Shown one piece after another: positions 2,257 to 7,747 of a DNA stretch of 64,000 nt (positions are counted from its first letter, which is position 1; the number at the start of each line of letters is the position of its first letter). Made by a program: the position numbers and the translations under genes. The stretch spans positions 62,001-126,000 of the forward strand of contig NZ_VFSV01000010.1 of the NCBI RefSeq assembly GCF_007004065.1. The letters are read 5' to 3'. Below the pieces are notes generated by a model. It saw nothing but the letters and a program-made list of their open reading frames with translations, did not search any database and was not told the DNA's origin. This DNA is from Palleronia caenipelagi. GTDB taxonomy: Bacteria; Pseudomonadota; Alphaproteobacteria; Rhodobacterales; Rhodobacteraceae.

Positions 2257-2982
2257 TCAGCTTGCGAGCGGTGCGCGGTCGTCCACATGTTCCAGCTGGT
2301 CGCTCTGACGACGTCGCGCCGCGGCGGCGGAGACCAGCGCCTTAAAGATCGCGCGTTGGCGCCGGGCGTAAAACAGGTGCTCGGGATGCCATTGGACGCC
2401 CAGCCAGAACGGTTCGGCTGTCCGTTCAATGGCCTGAACCATACCGCCCCCGTCCTTTGCCGCGACCCGGAGATCCTGCCCGAGATCGGACACGGCCTGC
2501 GTATGGAGGGCGTTCACTTTCATCTCGTCAAGTCCGGTGTGGTCGGCGAGGCGTGACCCTTCCGCAATCTGGACAGAGCGTCGCGGCAGGATGGTCTTGT
2601 ACTTGCGGCTGTCTCTGTGCGTGGCAAACGCGTCTTGATCGAGCTTACCGCCGAGCGCGATGTTGAGCATCTGCGAGCCACGGCAGATGCCCAGAACCGG
2701 CATATTCCGCTCCAATGCGCGCCGCGCGATCGTCAGCTCCATCTCGTCGCGCGCCGGGTCGAGGCGCGCCGACGCCGTGAGATTTCCGCCATAGAGGTCG
2801 GGCGAGATGTCATCTCCGCCGCCGATGATGATCCCGTCCACAGTCTCAACATTACAGGGACGCCCGGTCACCCAGCGAACCGCCCGGCCGCCCGCTAAAT
2901 GGACGTTGAGCGCCACCAGCGGAAAAATCCGCCAGCCAGACCGCGTCGAGGTGGTCACGCCGATCAGCGGACGGTCGGTCAT
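2257..2982 (-). CDS. Class I glutamine amidotransferase-like gamma-glutamyl hydrolase (peptidase C26)
   Basis: This 241-residue protein is related to PuuD-type gamma-glutamyl-gamma-aminobutyrate hydrolases, which cleave gamma-glutamyl amide bonds with a Cys-His-Glu triad. The nucleophile elbow is visible as GICRGSQ with Cys100. The His/Glu pair is in WHPEH (His199, Glu201). The GGGDDISP motif near residue 54 is also typical. Its start codon overlaps the amidoligase stop (ATGA), so the two are translationally coupled. This suggests that the hydrolase acts on, or trims, the product of the amidoligase. In such pairs one enzyme may make a gamma-glutamyl-type amide and the other remove it. The actual substrate cannot be read from sequence; polyamine catabolism genes are not nearby. 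Confidence 0.85.
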   Translation of the reverse strand: MTDRPLIGVTTSTRSGWRIFPLVALNVHLAGGRAVRWVTGRPCNVETVDGIIIGGGDDISPDLYGGNLTASARLDPARDEMELTIARRALERNMPVLGICRGSQMLNIALGGKLDQDAFATHRDSRKYKTILPRRSVQIAEGSRLADHTGLDEMKVNALHTQAVSDLGQDLRVAAKDGGGMVQAIERTAEPFWLGVQWHPEHLFYARRQRAIFKALVSAAAARRRQSDQLEHVDDRAPLAS

Positions 2983-3935
2983 CGGAAGGTCACCGCTTGG
3001 TCAAGGATCTCTGCCGAGGTTTTACCCCAGAGGCCTGGGACCGGCACAGTGCGGTTGCGGTAGTCGCGCCACGCGTCCATGAGCTGGGCCATGAGGTTCG
3101 TGTCAGCGGCCACGGTTTCCACGGCACACCAGCGGTTCCATTCCAGAGCAATGGACCAGCCCTCTTCGCCCAGACGGCAATCGGGAAGCCGGTAGTGCCA
3201 GGCCGGGCGTGCTCCTTTATCCGCCATCTCGGGAACGGCAGAGACAACGCGATCCTCGTCGAGCGATTTGAAGAGGGGGAGGGCGTCCAGACCGTGGTTA
3301 CGACTGCCCGCGTGCTCCAGATAGGCATCCATCAGCCGCTCAAGGGTCCAGTCCGTATCCCGATCACAAAGGGCATCCACCAGATCCGCCGAGTAGGGAT
3401 TGATGAAGGGCAACAGACGGCGGGACGCATCAATGTTCATCCGGTCCCGCATCCAGTCCTCCATCAGCGCAAAGGCGGTGAGTGTGGGCTGAATGGCATC
3501 AAGCTCAGTGCTCGCCAGCGCGACGTTCAGATGGACGCCGTACCCGAGGGCGATGCCCTCATTCGTTCCGAACGCACCGTCTTTGATCAGGTCCTGACAG
3601 ACGCTGTCGAGCGTTTCGATCTGTTCGGGCAGGATGGGCTCGGTAACAAACTCCACCGGAATCACCGAGCGCCCGAGGTCGAGGCCGGATTTTTCCAGAT
3701 CGCTCTCGACGCTTTTGCGCAAGGCGGTATCGAGCAGCACCTCGACTTCACCCAGCTCGGAGCCGGTCACGATCCATTCATACGGCGCTTTTTCCCGGGC
3801 TTCGCCACCCAGGCGACGGGCGAGGGTACGCGCCAGATCGTCTTCGGGCAGCCCCCCGCATTCGACTTCGATGCCCACGCGGCGGGGGGCGCCATCGCGG
3901 GTGTTAGGGTTCGGGAGATGCGCAATATGTGTCAT
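2979..3935 (-). CDS. Putative amidoligase (glutamine-synthetase/GCS-like fold)
   Basis: This 318-residue protein looks like the Amidoligase_2 family, predicted ATP-dependent COOH-NH2 ligases sharing the glutamine synthetase/glutamate-cysteine ligase fold. The N-terminal strand has the metal-binding style motif RVGIEVECGG (Glu23, Glu25). A second acidic strand follows around residues 62-66 (GEVEVLLD). The YGVHLNVAL segment near residue 150 carries the conserved His-x-Asn. Such ligases have been predicted, by comparative genomics, to make peptide-like metabolites or modify proteins, often next to gamma-glutamyl hydrolases, exactly as here. A sigma-EcfG-type element ends nine bases before the ATG and no proper Shine-Dalgarno is seen, so the message may be leaderless. 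The gene follows the stress histidine kinase by 59 bases. Activity is untested and the substrate unknown. Confidence 0.75.
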   Translation of the reverse strand: MTHIAHLPNPNTRDGAPRRVGIEVECGGLPEDDLARTLARRLGGEAREKAPYEWIVTGSELGEVEVLLDTALRKSVESDLEKSGLDLGRSVIPVEFVTEPILPEQIETLDSVCQDLIKDGAFGTNEGIALGYGVHLNVALASTELDAIQPTLTAFALMEDWMRDRMNIDASRRLLPFINPYSADLVDALCDRDTDWTLERLMDAYLEHAGSRNHGLDALPLFKSLDEDRVVSAVPEMADKGARPAWHYRLPDCRLGEEGWSIALEWNRWCAVETVAADTNLMAQLMDAWRDYRNRTVPVPGLWGKTSAEILDQAVTFR

Positions 3936-3943
3936 GCCCTAGC

Positions 3944-3968
3944 AACCCCGCATCGCCCGGCTGGTTCC
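3944..3968 (-). promoter_or_regulatory. Candidate sigma-EcfG promoter of the amidoligase/hydrolase pair
   Basis: On the minus strand GGAACC (3968-3963), a 16-base spacer (3962-3947) and GTTG (3946-3943) match the general-stress consensus GGAAC-N16/17-(C)GTT exactly. They have the same spacing as the phyR and nepR promoters in this window. The -10 triplet ends nine bases before the amidoligase ATG at 3935, so transcription should begin at or within a base or two of the start codon. Confidence 0.65.
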
Positions 3969-3994: not shown

Positions 3995-5698
3995 TCAGGC
4001 GCTTTCAGGGCTGAAATCGCTGGGCGTGAACCGGATTTCAGTGATGTAGGCGTCGTCTTCACGCGTCACAACGATCTGCGCGCCCAGTTGCAGGGTGAAG
4101 GCCTGAATGAGTTGTGTGCCAAGCCCGGACGAGAACTGCGGTTCATCCACCAGAGGCTCCCCGACCGAGTTTCCAATTCTCAGCCGGACCCGCCCGTCAT
4201 CGAGAGGCGCGAGGATGAAAGATACCCATGGCTGCCCATCTGGGGGTTTGCCCACATATTTCATCGCGTTCGTCAGTGCTTCGGCGACGAGCAGCGACAA
4301 AGGGACGGCCTGATCGGGATAGAGCGGGATATCAGCGACTTCGATAGTTCGGTCGACCTCGGCGCCGAGCAGCGCGGAGCGGTCAAACACCTGTTGGGCG
4401 AGATCTCGGATCAGCTCGCCCGTAGAAACACGCGACAGTACGGATGCCTCGTAGAGCGACTGGTGGATCGCTGCGAGACTGTGCACCCGATCCTGGAGCC
4501 TCTGGAGCACAAAGCGCGTCTCCGGAGTCTCCGTTTTGCGCAGTTGCATGTTGGTCAGAGAGGCGATGAGCTGCAGGTTGTTCTTCACCCGATGGTGCAC
4601 TTCTTTCAGAAGCACATCTTTTTCATGGAGTGAGTTTTCCAGCTCCGCTTCGTCCATAACGATCCGCTCGGTGAGCACCTGAAACGCATCGGCAACCTCG
4701 CGGATATCGCTGGGAGTATCGGGCTCGTAGTCGATGCCGAAGACACGGCGATTAGACGTAAATGCTCTGATCCGCATCCTGATGCGCCGGATATGGCGGA
4801 TGACCAACCGGTGCACGGCGAGATACGCGACCCAGATCGTCGCCAGCCACATGATGAGCGGAAACAGCAATGCCGTGGAGGTTGTGAGAGGCGACTCCGG
4901 TATCGCGTCCGGGTGCCAAACGGCCATGGTGTAGATATTGCCCTGAAGCAGCGGTGCGATCACGTAGATCTGGCTCTGACCCGCTATGGAATCAGCCCGA
5001 AACACCTTCGCCTCGCCCGACACAGTGAGGCTTTCCAGCGTTGTATTCGCGGGAAAATCGCCTTCTTCGCTGGCGATATTGTCGGAGTCCCACAGGACAT
5101 GCCCGGCCCGGGTGAAGGCGGTGATGTATTGCGGTCCGGACACTTGCATCCCATCTTCCTGTCGCCGGATTGACCGGCGCGGAACGTGGACCAGAGCGTA
5201 GCCTTCCTCGCCATTGGGCATGACCAGCGGCTCGGCGATCGCCAAAAGCGTCCGTTTGCCGTCACCGGCGCGTACAGATCTGATGGATGAGAGGGGGGCG
5301 GCCTCGAAGTCTTTGTGCGTCAGGGTCTGAGATAAATCCATTCCCGTTCCGGCAGAACTGCACCGCACAATACCGGTCTCATCGACGTAACCGGCGAATT
5401 CGACCGCCGATGTCTGCTCGGCAAAGCGCGACAGAGTGCGGGAGCACACCTCCGGCTGTGTCATCAGCGCCGGGATGGCTTCTGCCAGCATGCGCGCAGA
5501 GCCCCGCATCTGCATCACACTTTCCCGCTCGCTCTGCGCGGCATTCACAGTGGCCGAGATAAGCGACTGCTCTGCGGTGGCCCGTGCGTCCTGAATCACC
5601 CGATGAGTCTGCACCATGGCAATCATCCCGATCGGCAGAAGTGCGATGCCGAGCAGAAAAACAACCCGGACGTCCAGCCGGTTCAGCCCGTCCGTCAT
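3995..5698 (-). CDS. HWE/HisKA_2-type sensor histidine kinase of the general stress response
   Basis: This roughly 567-residue membrane histidine kinase is the likely sensor that phosphorylates PhyR. A first transmembrane helix near residues 12-32 is followed by an extracytoplasmic domain of about 235 residues. A second helix near 275-298 leads into a HAMP-like linker. The HisKA_2 dimerization box reads EVHHRVKNNLQL (phospho-acceptor His about residue 369), as in PhyK-type kinases. An ATPase domain follows, with N-box AEALTNAMKYV and a GLGTQL box. I chose the ATG at 5698; an in-frame TTG at 5716, just four bases past the ecfG stop, is possible. It sits directly behind nepR-ecfG, the usual alphaproteobacterial order. 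The stimulus sensed by the periplasmic domain is unknown. Confidence 0.88.
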   Translation of the reverse strand: MTDGLNRLDVRVVFLLGIALLPIGMIAMVQTHRVIQDARATAEQSLISATVNAAQSERESVMQMRGSARMLAEAIPALMTQPEVCSRTLSRFAEQTSAVEFAGYVDETGIVRCSSAGTGMDLSQTLTHKDFEAAPLSSIRSVRAGDGKRTLLAIAEPLVMPNGEEGYALVHVPRRSIRRQEDGMQVSGPQYITAFTRAGHVLWDSDNIASEEGDFPANTTLESLTVSGEAKVFRADSIAGQSQIYVIAPLLQGNIYTMAVWHPDAIPESPLTTSTALLFPLIMWLATIWVAYLAVHRLVIRHIRRIRMRIRAFTSNRRVFGIDYEPDTPSDIREVADAFQVLTERIVMDEAELENSLHEKDVLLKEVHHRVKNNLQLIASLTNMQLRKTETPETRFVLQRLQDRVHSLAAIHQSLYEASVLSRVSTGELIRDLAQQVFDRSALLGAEVDRTIEVADIPLYPDQAVPLSLLVAEALTNAMKYVGKPPDGQPWVSFILAPLDDGRVRLRIGNSVGEPLVDEPQFSSGLGTQLIQAFTLQLGAQIVVTREDDAYITEIRFTPSDFSPESA

Positions 5699-5719
5699 CT
5701 TCACCGGAAGCAGCAAGGA

Positions 5720-6286
5720 TTAACCCTGTCGGTTACGTTGCGCGGTCAGAACGCCGACATTCGTACTGTCCGCGATCACAGGATCTTCGTTCGGGTCAAG
5801 GCCCATCAATTCGGCCAGACGGCGGCGCCCCCGATTGGCGCGGCTCTTGATGGTGCCAACGGCGACACCGCACATCTCGGCGGCTTCATCATAGGCGAAA
5901 CCTGACGCCCCAACCAGCATCAGCGCCTCGCGCTGCTCGTCCGGAAGTTGTTCAAAAGCCTTGCGAAAATCATTGAGCGCAAGGCGGCCATCATGGGCCG
6001 GTCGTTCCGACAGTGTGGCCGCAATCGCGCCGTCCACGTCGGCGACTTCCCGCTTTGACTTGCGCCGGACGGAATAGAAGGCGTTCCGCTGAATTGTGAA
6101 GAGCCAAGCCCGAAGATTCGTGCCAGCCTCGAATTTCTCTATATTTTTCCAAGCTTTCTCAATCGTGTCCTGTACTAGATCGTCCGCCGCAGCCGAGTTG
6201 CGGGTCAAAGACATCGCAAACGCTCTCAGTGCTGACAGATGGTCGAGGATTTCTTCGCGCGGGTCGCGATGACCGGCATCAGCCAT
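5720..6286 (-). CDS. ecfG: General stress response ECF sigma factor EcfG
   Basis: This 188-residue ECF sigma factor has sigma region 2 (about residues 15-85, with NSAAADDLVQDTIEKAWKN and LRAWLFTIQRNAFY). Region 4 (about 110-165) includes LPDEQREALMLVGASGFAYDEAAEM. The overall match is to the EcfG/SigT type that binds GGAAC-N16/17-CGTT promoters. In unstressed cells it is held by NepR, and PhyR~P sequesters NepR to release it. The ATG lies inside the end of nepR (8-base overlap), giving coupled, stoichiometric translation. A Shine-Dalgarno (AAGGA) is present within nepR. Autoregulation is expected through the sigma-EcfG-type promoter upstream of nepR. Confidence 0.93.
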   Translation of the reverse strand: MADAGHRDPREEILDHLSALRAFAMSLTRNSAAADDLVQDTIEKAWKNIEKFEAGTNLRAWLFTIQRNAFYSVRRKSKREVADVDGAIAATLSERPAHDGRLALNDFRKAFEQLPDEQREALMLVGASGFAYDEAAEMCGVAVGTIKSRANRGRRRLAELMGLDPNEDPVIADSTNVGVLTAQRNRQG

Positions 6287-6434
6287 CCCGCTGTTCCTTT
6301 TCTTTCAGCTTCTCGAGAAGGACCTTGAAGCGGTCGGGAACATCTGTCGGTGGCTCATCGTCGCGATAGACCCGACGAAGGTTTTCATCGATCTGTCGCA
6401 TGACACTGGACCAGTCTTTTTGCTGTGACGCCAT
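6279..6434 (-). CDS. nepR: Anti-sigma factor NepR
   Basis: Translating the minus strand from the ATG at 6434 gives a 51-residue acidic/basic protein beginning MASQQKDWSSVMRQIDENL. It contains LRRVYRDDEPPTDVPDRF and LLEKLKEKE, which match the two-helix NepR core that binds EcfG and, on stress, the sigma-like domain of PhyR. At 51 residues it is at the short end of the family. The stop codon overlaps the first codons of ecfG by eight bases. A GTG at 6440 would add two residues. The Shine-Dalgarno is weak. Transcription should start from the minus-strand sigma-EcfG-like promoter at 6505-6481. Confidence 0.92.
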   Translation of the reverse strand: MASQQKDWSSVMRQIDENLRRVYRDDEPPTDVPDRFKVLLEKLKEKEQRDG

Positions 6435-6474: not shown

Positions 6475-6500
6475 GGAACCAACGCCGTTTCTCTATGTTA
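6475..6500 (+). promoter_or_regulatory. Candidate sigma-EcfG promoter of phyR
   Basis: GGAACC (6475-6480), a 16-base spacer (6481-6496) and GTTA (6497-6500) fit the general stress consensus. The phyR start at 6540 lies about 40 bases downstream. The element interlocks with the opposite-strand promoter of nepR. Confidence 0.75.
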
Positions 6501-6505
6501 GTTCC
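6481..6505 (-). promoter_or_regulatory. Candidate sigma-EcfG promoter of nepR-ecfG-kinase
   Basis: On the minus strand GGAACT (6505-6500), a 16-base spacer (6499-6484) and CGTT (ending 6481) match the consensus. Its -35 lies on the -10 of the phyR promoter and vice versa, because GGAACYAAC forms an inverted repeat around a 13-base core. The nepR start is about 47 bases downstream. Confidence 0.75.
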
Positions 6506-6539
6506 CCAACAGTATCTAACAAGGTGGAAAGCGCGACAC

Positions 6540-7367
6540 ATGGCCGGAGATGACACACAGATTCATATCGCGGATCTGATCGGAAATGAGCTGCCATACC
6601 TGCGTCGCTACGCACGGGCGCTGACCGGATCGCAATCGACCGGTGACAATTATGCGGCTGCGACGCTGGAGGCGATCCTGCAGGAGCCGGCAATTTTTCA
6701 GCGGGCTCTCTCTCCTAAAACTGCGCTGTTCCGGGCCTTTCACCTGATCTGGTCCACGGCGGGCGCGCCCACGGCAGACACTGAGGATCCTGAGAGCCTG
6801 CTGGAAAGCCAGGCGCTGGCGCACATGTCCGGCCTGACAAACAACACCCGCGAGGCGCTCTTGTTATCGACCATCGAGGGCTTCAGCTTTGAGCAGGTCG
6901 GCAAGATCATGGATATCGAGCCCGGCGAAGCCGCCAATCTGGTGGATATTGCGATCTCCGAGATGCAGAAGTCCATGTCCGGTCGCGTTATGGTGATCGA
7001 GGACGAGGCCCTGATCGCCATGGACATTCACTCCATTGTCAGCGGAATGGGCCACACGGTGACTGGCATTGCCCGGACGCGCAGTGCCGCCGTGGAGCTT
7101 GCGGCGAAGGAAAAGCCCGACCTGATCCTCTCGGATATCCAGCTGGCTGACAACTCCTCGGGGATTGATGCCGTCGAGGATATTCTCGGCCAATTCGGCG
7201 ACATCCCGGTGATTTTTATCACCGCCTTCCCGGAGCGGCTTCTGACAGGCGACAAGCCCGAACCGGCGTTTTTGATCTCCAAGCCCTACACCGAAGAGCA
7301 GGTCCAGTCTGCGGTCAGCCAAGCCATGTTCTTTGCCTCCAGCAGATCGCTCCAGGTCGAAGCTTAA
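6540..7367 (+). CDS. phyR: General stress response regulator PhyR
   Basis: This 275-residue protein has an N-terminal EcfG-like sigma domain that lacks promoter-binding function in the family (about residues 8-140). A C-terminal receiver domain (about 148-268) has the acidic pair Glu155/Asp156, phospho-acceptor Asp199 in LILSDIQLAD, and the LISKPYT switch Lys. When phosphorylated, PhyR binds NepR and frees EcfG. The ATG at 6540 was chosen because GGAAAG lies eight bases upstream. An in-frame ATG at 6495 lies inside the promoter and has no ribosome site. The gene diverges from nepR-ecfG and is followed by a strong terminator. Confidence 0.94.
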   Translation: MAGDDTQIHIADLIGNELPYLRRYARALTGSQSTGDNYAAATLEAILQEPAIFQRALSPKTALFRAFHLIWSTAGAPTADTEDPESLLESQALAHMSGLTNNTREALLLSTIEGFSFEQVGKIMDIEPGEAANLVDIAISEMQKSMSGRVMVIEDEALIAMDIHSIVSGMGHTVTGIARTRSAAVELAAKEKPDLILSDIQLADNSSGIDAVEDILGQFGDIPVIFITAFPERLLTGDKPEPAFLISKPYTEEQVQSAVSQAMFFASSRSLQVEA

Positions 7368-7504: not shown

Positions 7505-7681
7505 TCAAGGTCGTTCCGGACCATCCCGGCGGGACAAACGGACGAGGGGTTGGATTACTGCGATCGCCAGCAGGACCAGAAATACGATCCGCGCGGCATT
7601 CGCATGCACTGTCTCGCCGCCGCCGAAACCCCAAAGTCCAATCAGGGTGGCGATAACGAGAAAGATGACGGATCTGACCAT
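7505..7681 (-). CDS. DUF1328-like small membrane protein
   Basis: This 58-residue protein has two hydrophobic helices (about residues 3-20 and 29-47) with the WGFGGGETVHANAARIVF turn between them. It resembles DUF1328/YtjA-like small membrane proteins of unknown function. The ATG at 7681 has a very good Shine-Dalgarno (GGAGGG, eight bases upstream). A longer reading frame from 7714 would lack this. A sigma-EcfG-type element lies about 40-65 bases upstream, placing it in the stress regulon next to phyR. The gene stands alone between phyR and the tamA-tamB operon. Confidence 0.75.
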   Translation of the reverse strand: MVRSVIFLVIATLIGLWGFGGGETVHANAARIVFLVLLAIAVIQPLVRLSRRDGPERP

Positions 7682-7722
7682 GTGCTGTACCCTCCCGGAC
7701 CGTGGTGCGTTCATGCGCAGAG

Positions 7723-7747
7723 AACGGGCAGGGGCGGCAAATGTTCC
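7723..7747 (-). promoter_or_regulatory. Candidate sigma-EcfG promoter of the DUF1328-like gene
   Basis: On the minus strand GGAACA (7747-7742), a 16-base spacer ending in C, and GTT (7725-7723) match the consensus with the same spacing as the phyR and nepR promoters. The start codon at 7681 is about 41 bases downstream. Confidence 0.65.

Follow-up and report, generated by a model that had tools for sequence, protein, structure and literature searches.

An overlapping amidoligase and hydrolase gene pair that looks as if it is switched by the general stress response in part of the Rhodobacteraceae

A predicted amide-forming ligase (AmL) and a hydrolase (GAT26) are encoded side by side in the window, the whole 64-kb stretch of DNA that was analysed, directly downstream of nepR-ecfG-histidine kinase on the same strand, with phyR divergent. 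This arrangement raises the question of whether the two enzymes belong to the general stress response (GSR) and, if so, which amide is gained or lost once the GSR is active. The locus comprises the following features.

2257..2982, minus strand: GAT26, Peptidase_C26 / class I GATase-fold hydrolase, 241 aa, triad C100-H199-E201 (Pfam, fold)
2979..2982, minus strand: ATGA overlap of AmL and GAT26 (sequence; kept in relatives)
2979..3935, minus strand: AmL, Amidoligase_2 (PF12224) protein, predicted ATP-dependent amide-forming ligase, 318 aa (Pfam)
3944..3968, minus strand: predicted EcfG-type promoter of AmL, GGAAC-N16-GGTT (motif; position shared by relatives and by held-out genomes)
3995..5716, minus strand: HWE/HisKA_2 sensor histidine kinase (Pfam HisKA_2 2.9e-22, HWE_HK 3.3e-8)
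5720..6286, minus strand: EcfG-type sigma factor (NCBIfam NF009198, 307 bits, cut-off 270)
6279..6434, minus strand: NepR anti-sigma factor, 51 aa (ORF; Pfam NepR E 1.9e-9, 37.4 bits, cut-off 25.7)
6481..6505, minus strand: predicted EcfG-type promoter before nepR-ecfG, GGAAC-N16-CGTT (motif)
6495..7367, plus strand: PhyR response regulator / anti-anti-sigma factor (NCBIfam NF006623, 352.7 bits, cut-off 240)
7723-7747, minus strand: EcfG-type motif exactly 8 nt before the ATG of a DUF1328-like ORF

The nepR-ecfG-kinase genes and phyR constitute a standard GSR locus; on the kinase, the NCBIfam PhyK model scores 203.5 bits, below its cut-off of 750. The reading frames of AmL and GAT26 overlap as the preliminary description had proposed, both lying on the minus strand and sharing the ATGA of 2979-2982. 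AmL contains the sequence GIEVECGG and matches Amidoligase_2 PF12224 with an E value of 3.2e-44 (152.1 bits against a cut-off of 22) over model positions 2-244 of 245. GAT26 matches Peptidase_C26 PF07722 (E 1.6e-48), which outscores the GATase model (E 1.4e-16). Its description as an amidotransferase-fold hydrolase with Cys100, His199 and Glu201 is borne out by this match, by the Foldseek fold match and by the alignment of its relatives (103 rows minus 2 short), where each of the three residues is invariant in 101/101.

The distribution of the ligase family and of the pair was surveyed in draws of genomes from the order, the class and the family. PF12224 is present in 47 of 292 genomes of the order Rhodobacterales, all in Rhodobacteraceae and with one copy each, in 26 of 385 genomes of the class Alphaproteobacteria, 24 of them outside Rhodobacteraceae, and in 72 of 394 Rhodobacteraceae genomes of the second draw. 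The loci comprised ~18 kb for the first 47 genomes and ~17 kb for the 24 outside the family, and were joined by those of 48 new second-draw genomes whose genus codes were all absent from the first draw (the held-out set). Genes were called by a purpose-written codon-usage script that gives approximate start positions. Loci with no AmL by blastp with the window protein were dropped (4/48 held-out and 4/24 outside-family), leaving 44 and 20. L002, L004 and L008 were left out as apparent duplicates of G165, G280 and G284, and L163 is in no count; the held-out L219, apparently the same locus as L007 by its gene order and earlier scored without promoter, was kept in the counts.

GAT26 is the next gene on the same strand in 40/47 and 39/44 genomes, thus 79/91 Rhodobacteraceae, and in 19 of the 20 outside-family loci with a recognised AmL. 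A 4-nt NTGA overlap in the GAT26 frame is possible in 36/40 and 33/39 adjacent pairs of the two family sets and in 10/19 outside Rhodobacteraceae. Because the hydrolase follows so regularly and the overlap is so widely possible, AmL/GAT26 is a translationally overlapping amidoligase/hydrolase pair beyond chance; an adjacent hydrolase is lacking for 12/91 family AmL genes. PhyR or EcfG is found within the ~18-kb AmL locus in 20/47 and 20/44 genomes (40/91 together), the random-place expectation being about 0.45% for a genome assumed to be 4.1 Mb. In 12/20 and 9/20 of the GSR-linked loci EcfG lies upstream in the same co-directional run as AmL.

Other contexts are also frequent. In one clade of 18 rows, 16 have rlmN directly upstream of AmL; elsewhere AmL lies behind DUF3618 and an AI-2E-type transporter. 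AmL genes without GAT26 occur near cell-wall synthesis genes or a flavoprotein, as labelled by eye from protein starts. One such clade (L077, L080, L083 and L226) has AmL beside peptidoglycan-precursor ligase-like genes, again by eye, in 3/4 members. Asparaginase II, LOG and DapD genes lie near the pair where it follows rlmN in L041, L047, L051, L084 and others.

The regulatory question turns on the sequence before AmL. In the covered part of a study of Sphingomonas melonis, the EcfG motif is given as GGAAC-N17-20-GTT (PMC6599016); the motif searched here was GGAAC-N16-17-[CG]GTT. Over the whole window it occurs 4 times against 1.51 expected, a count that 8/100 shuffles reach and that is not unusual. 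The argument rests on the three of them that lie within 3.8 kb, before AmL, nepR and the DUF1328-like ORF, and on comparative data. The window AmL motif is separated from the start codon by 8 nt (3936-3943), and its -10 element is GGTT instead of the commoner CGTT. The ORF within 7505-7747 (minus strand), whose upstream motif has an AmL-like geometry, resembles the DUF1328 small membrane proteins (E 2e-4, 22 vs 27 bits).

Across genomes the motif is enriched before AmL. A search of the 300 bp upstream of the leading gene of each AmL operon found it in 21/72 cases, compared with 43/524 control operons, and was then narrowed to AmL itself. Within 200 bp before the start, a search that allowed 30 bp into the gene, it precedes AmL in 17/47 genomes of the first set (13/27 genera) and 71/778 other genes, with 3/47 on the other strand of these AmL upstream regions; the corresponding held-out values are 15/44 and 64/716. 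Often the motif ends immediately ahead of the ATG. A motif ending 5-10 nt before the start, a distance chosen after viewing the first-set data and then applied to the held-out genera, is found for AmL in 10/47 first-set genomes (8 genera) against 9/866 other genes (Fisher 3e-9), and in 11/44 held-out genomes against 9/716 (Fisher 7.8e-10), or 8/44 against 5/716 when only CGTT is accepted in the held-out set. Before GAT26 it is found in 0/41 cases in either set. The same anchored motif is also enriched where AmL is not near GSR genes (7/51 vs 7/921), and among the 28 AmL motifs located 0-25 nt before an ATG the spacer is exactly 8 nt in 20. Given this fixed spacing and a start point a few bases past the -10 element, the 5' end would fall at the ATG and the mRNA would probably be leaderless.

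The promoter is far from universal. The strict anchored motif is missing from 70/91 family AmL genes, it is present in a single row of the 18-row rlmN-linked clade, and outside Rhodobacteraceae it is almost absent (1/20 AmL). On the AmL tree of 90 rows, from which one short AmL was omitted, its distribution requires 14 changes, at least 9 of them forced by starred branches. The promoter is thus clustered but recurrent, since fewer changes are needed than in 499/500 shuffles and yet 14 are required. Promoter presence and GSR-locus linkage show no clear association across the AmL tree (6 independent pairs, not significant).

The proposal that AmL/GAT26 takes part in the general stress response is strengthened both by the locus linkage and by the position-locked promoter, which was confirmed on held-out genera. 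EcfG control of the pair, the regulatory half of the interpretation, is well supported by comparison and is judged highly probable from the sequences. In a sizeable part of Rhodobacteraceae the pair looks as if it is switched on by the GSR. The promoter geometry points to leaderless messages for part of the GSR regulon of this family. In the covered part of the S. melonis study (PMC6599016), the EcfG motif stands 8 or 10 nt ahead of the start codon in a few genes; the core genes and promoter type described there are those of the window, and no amidoligase is mentioned in that part. A near-fixed 8-nt promoter spacing for one gene across genera was not found described in the literature searched.

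A cultivated species carries the same combination. In Dinoroseobacter shibae the amidoligase DSHI_RS19780 and the hydrolase DSHI_RS19775 are encoded on pDSHI02 (NC_009956.1), with phyR-nepR-ecfG-kinase-PLD about 100 kb away, and an EcfG-type motif ends 8 nt before the annotated DSHI_RS19780 start (this locus is L224 of the held-out set, and the motif is counted there). EcfG-type motifs number 14 in the 35 kb around the pair, against 0.81 expected, and 9 in the 36 kb around the GSR core, against 0.48 expected. pDSHI02 (L235, L241) holds a dense stress island with Trk, Dps, a mechanosensitive channel, a PRC-barrel protein and a formate/nitrite transporter, and many EcfG-type motifs. The covered parts of two reports describe the 153-kb D. 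shibae chromid as essential at least under salt shock (PMC9426580) and count three of its genes, for a kinase, a sigma factor and a hypothetical product, among those of the stress response (PMC4373377); these three are probably the D. shibae GSR genes. With a promoter fixed in place across genera and a cultivated model species in which a single chromid carries both the pair and the GSR core, the question of which amide responds to the GSR is testable.

The nature of that amide depends on the chemistry of the two enzymes. The AlphaFold2 model of AmL is of high confidence (pLDDT 91.6, pTM 0.91). Its two top matches in a Foldseek search of the PDB are weak, namely Dop (E 0.017, TM 0.20) and GS III (E 0.023), with none at or below 0.001, whereas a viral library returns 18 matches at E≤0.001, 9 of them named amidoligase (best E 7.8e-6). 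AmL has no match in the PDB by sequence, and a profile search of the PDB gives matches at chance level only (best E 0.47). Profile alignments with hhalign, in which 50 and 72 AmL rows were set against GCS2, YbdK-like GCS2 and GlnA, yield E values of 0.12-0.62 for GS and the two GCS2 sets compared with 0.086-0.52 for five unrelated control families. The candidate active-site residues are nevertheless strongly conserved in the alignment of 110 sequences (111 rows minus 1 short): E23 and E25 in 109 each, E95 and N137 in 110, R243, H247, R249 and E273 in 110 each, and H135 in 101 with Q in the remaining 9, while the motif positions R163, E95, N137 and R249 are kept in 102-110 rows. By eye, the order of these residues resembles the GxExE, E, GxHxN/H and xRxP elements of GS/GCS, to which they may correspond. 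The GS/GCS-type ATP site to which the preliminary description refers is weakly supported, by the identity of the two top fold matches, whose E values exceed 0.001; the profiles do no better than controls. The kinship of AmL to glutamine synthetase and GCS is weak.

The affinities of GAT26 are clearer. Its model has a pLDDT of 90.6, and in the PDB Foldseek retrieves lin1909 (3fij, E 7.1e-19), PuuD (6vtv, E 1.1e-17) and SpuA (7d53, E 1.4e-17), which are the closest solved relatives by sequence as well as by fold. PuuD and SpuA are gamma-glutamyl-amide hydrolases. GAT26 clearly belongs to this lin1909/SpuA/PuuD group and is not a PuuD by the NCBIfam cut-off, as the PuuD model NF008471 scores 94 bits against 266. 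Lower in the same list are the GATases that supply ammonia to the GMP, carbamoyl-phosphate and aminodeoxychorismate synthases.

These observations can be combined into a mechanism. Under stress PhyR frees EcfG from NepR, as established in other alphaproteobacteria, and the same release would be expected at this locus. EcfG would transcribe the pair from the nepR-ecfG promoter, possibly by read-through, and also from the promoter of AmL itself, with a leaderless start at or next to the ATG. Using ATP, AmL would join a carboxylate, most likely the gamma-carboxyl of glutamate, to an amine. Translation of GAT26 would begin at the overlapping start codon, and this enzyme would cleave the gamma-glutamyl amide through its Cys-His-Glu triad, so that the two together would set the level of this amide in times of stress. 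The ligase chemistry, the gamma-glutamyl substrate and the direction of the cycle are suggested by analogy with related enzymes. That AmL and GAT26 form a two-enzyme amide module of the GSR, with opposing activities on a gamma-glutamyl amide, is considered about evenly balanced between right and wrong. A more detailed and more tentative proposal, possible but less probable, is an undescribed arm of the GSR in which a leaderless, EcfG-driven AmL makes a gamma-glutamyl amide that serves as a new protectant, as a new signal or as a reversible tag of a protein or an envelope polymer, which the co-translated hydrolase erases after stress.

The main rival keeps the same stress control and places the two activities in one direction, GAT26 acting as a glutaminase that feeds ammonia to AmL, which amidates a carboxylate. 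The class I GATase fold of GAT26, its Pfam GATase match and the ammonia-supplying GATases among its lower-ranked fold neighbours are consistent with this arrangement, and the near-fixed pairing with a 4-nt overlap would suit a 1:1 AmL-GAT26 complex. However, the best sequence and fold matches of GAT26 are free-standing hydrolases, the Peptidase_C26 model scores above the GATase model, and in 12 of 91 genomes AmL has no GAT26 next to it (only adjacency was scored), which leaves ammonia feeding rather unlikely. Less probable again is a reversible mark: under stress AmL would couple an amino acid or an amine to a large partner, be it a protein, a peptide or an envelope polymer, and GAT26 would take it off again, in the manner of the ligase/deligase pair PafA/Dop with Pup. 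Dop is indeed the best, albeit weak, PDB match of AmL, and envelope or membrane genes are frequent in GSR loci (DUF883, Holin-like and YihY in the window; CsbD, PLD and AI-2E transporter in relatives), but the surveyed loci share no third gene beside the pair that would encode a substrate protein, and the C26 hydrolases of known function act, to our knowledge, on small molecules.

A reading in which the pair is under no stress control, comprising housekeeping or amine-using enzymes that lie near GSR genes merely by shared locus ancestry, would explain why many family members are found elsewhere, such as after rlmN, without the promoter, and why the pair is older than the GSR link, as seen from its occurrence in further alphaproteobacterial families in which that link is missing. 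This is very improbable, since the promoter is enriched in held-out genera and away from GSR genes, its distance to the ATG is nearly constant, and changes of context and promoter recur on the AmL tree. The two-enzyme module acting on a gamma-glutamyl amide is the preferred reading, and it can be compared with systems that are already known.

Iyer et al. reportedly predicted in 2009 that Amidoligase_2 proteins are COOH-NH2 ligases, together with the existence of amidoligase/GATase pairs. AmL resembles this family in lying far above the Pfam cut-off and in the match of its model to predicted phage amidoligases. The phage members are remote, since a tblastn search of 50,697 phage records with AmL gives no match at E 0.01, and unlike them the Rhodobacterales-type AmL is coupled with a C26 hydrolase and in many cases linked to the GSR. 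If AmL formed and GAT26 hydrolysed a gamma-glutamyl amide, the logic would be that of the PuuA/PuuD and SpuA-type gamma-glutamylpolyamine cycle, and GAT26 is nearest to SpuA, PuuD and lin1909; in contrast, the PuuA-type ligase is a Gln-synt_C protein, which AmL is not, and no oxidase or dehydrogenase of the pathway is kept beside the pair. The covered part of the Phage-ZRK32 report lists an amidoligase, a glutamine amidotransferase, a glutathione synthase and a gamma-glutamylcyclotransferase as auxiliary genes and proposes a role in nitrogen metabolism (PMC10945688). By that description the first two parallel AmL/GAT26, and the phage setting and the two further enzymes differ. The pairing of amidoligase and GATase is thus already known, while the stress setting and the promoter geometry appear to be new. 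Amidoligase_2 is named by prediction, and no worked-out physiology was found in the literature searched; nor was an amidoligase found together with EcfG or the general stress response in that literature, which excluded subscription papers.

A known pathway that would account for the pair, such as polyamine or glutathione synthesis, had been raised in the preliminary description; both were looked for in this genome and neither explains it. The 99.7%-complete draft of this genome contains one Gln-synt_C (PF00120) protein, so that no PuuA-type ligase is present at the Pfam level. No GCS2 gene lies beside the pair, the two GCS2 proteins of the genome being encoded on other contigs. A phage or defence origin was likewise rejected, as neither AmL nor GAT26 has a PADLOC match and AmL has no phage record by tblastn; among PHROGs, there is none for AmL and a glutamine amidotransferase group for GAT26. 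One other C26 protein of this genome also scores strongly (G000:C1, 177 bits); its neighbours, of which 10 of the 15 ORFs listed for that stretch were scanned, include peptidase M1, SDR and transhydrogenase genes.

Two further features of the GSR-linked loci concern neighbouring genes. A PLD-family protein of ~515 aa is encoded between the histidine kinase and AmL in several close relatives (L003, L005, L006, L062, L063, L075 and others), and the window is without it at this place. Downstream of the pair, at 1512-2163 on the minus strand, the window encodes DUF883-like and Holin_3_6-like small proteins, envelope genes of the GSR type that are kept in near relatives.
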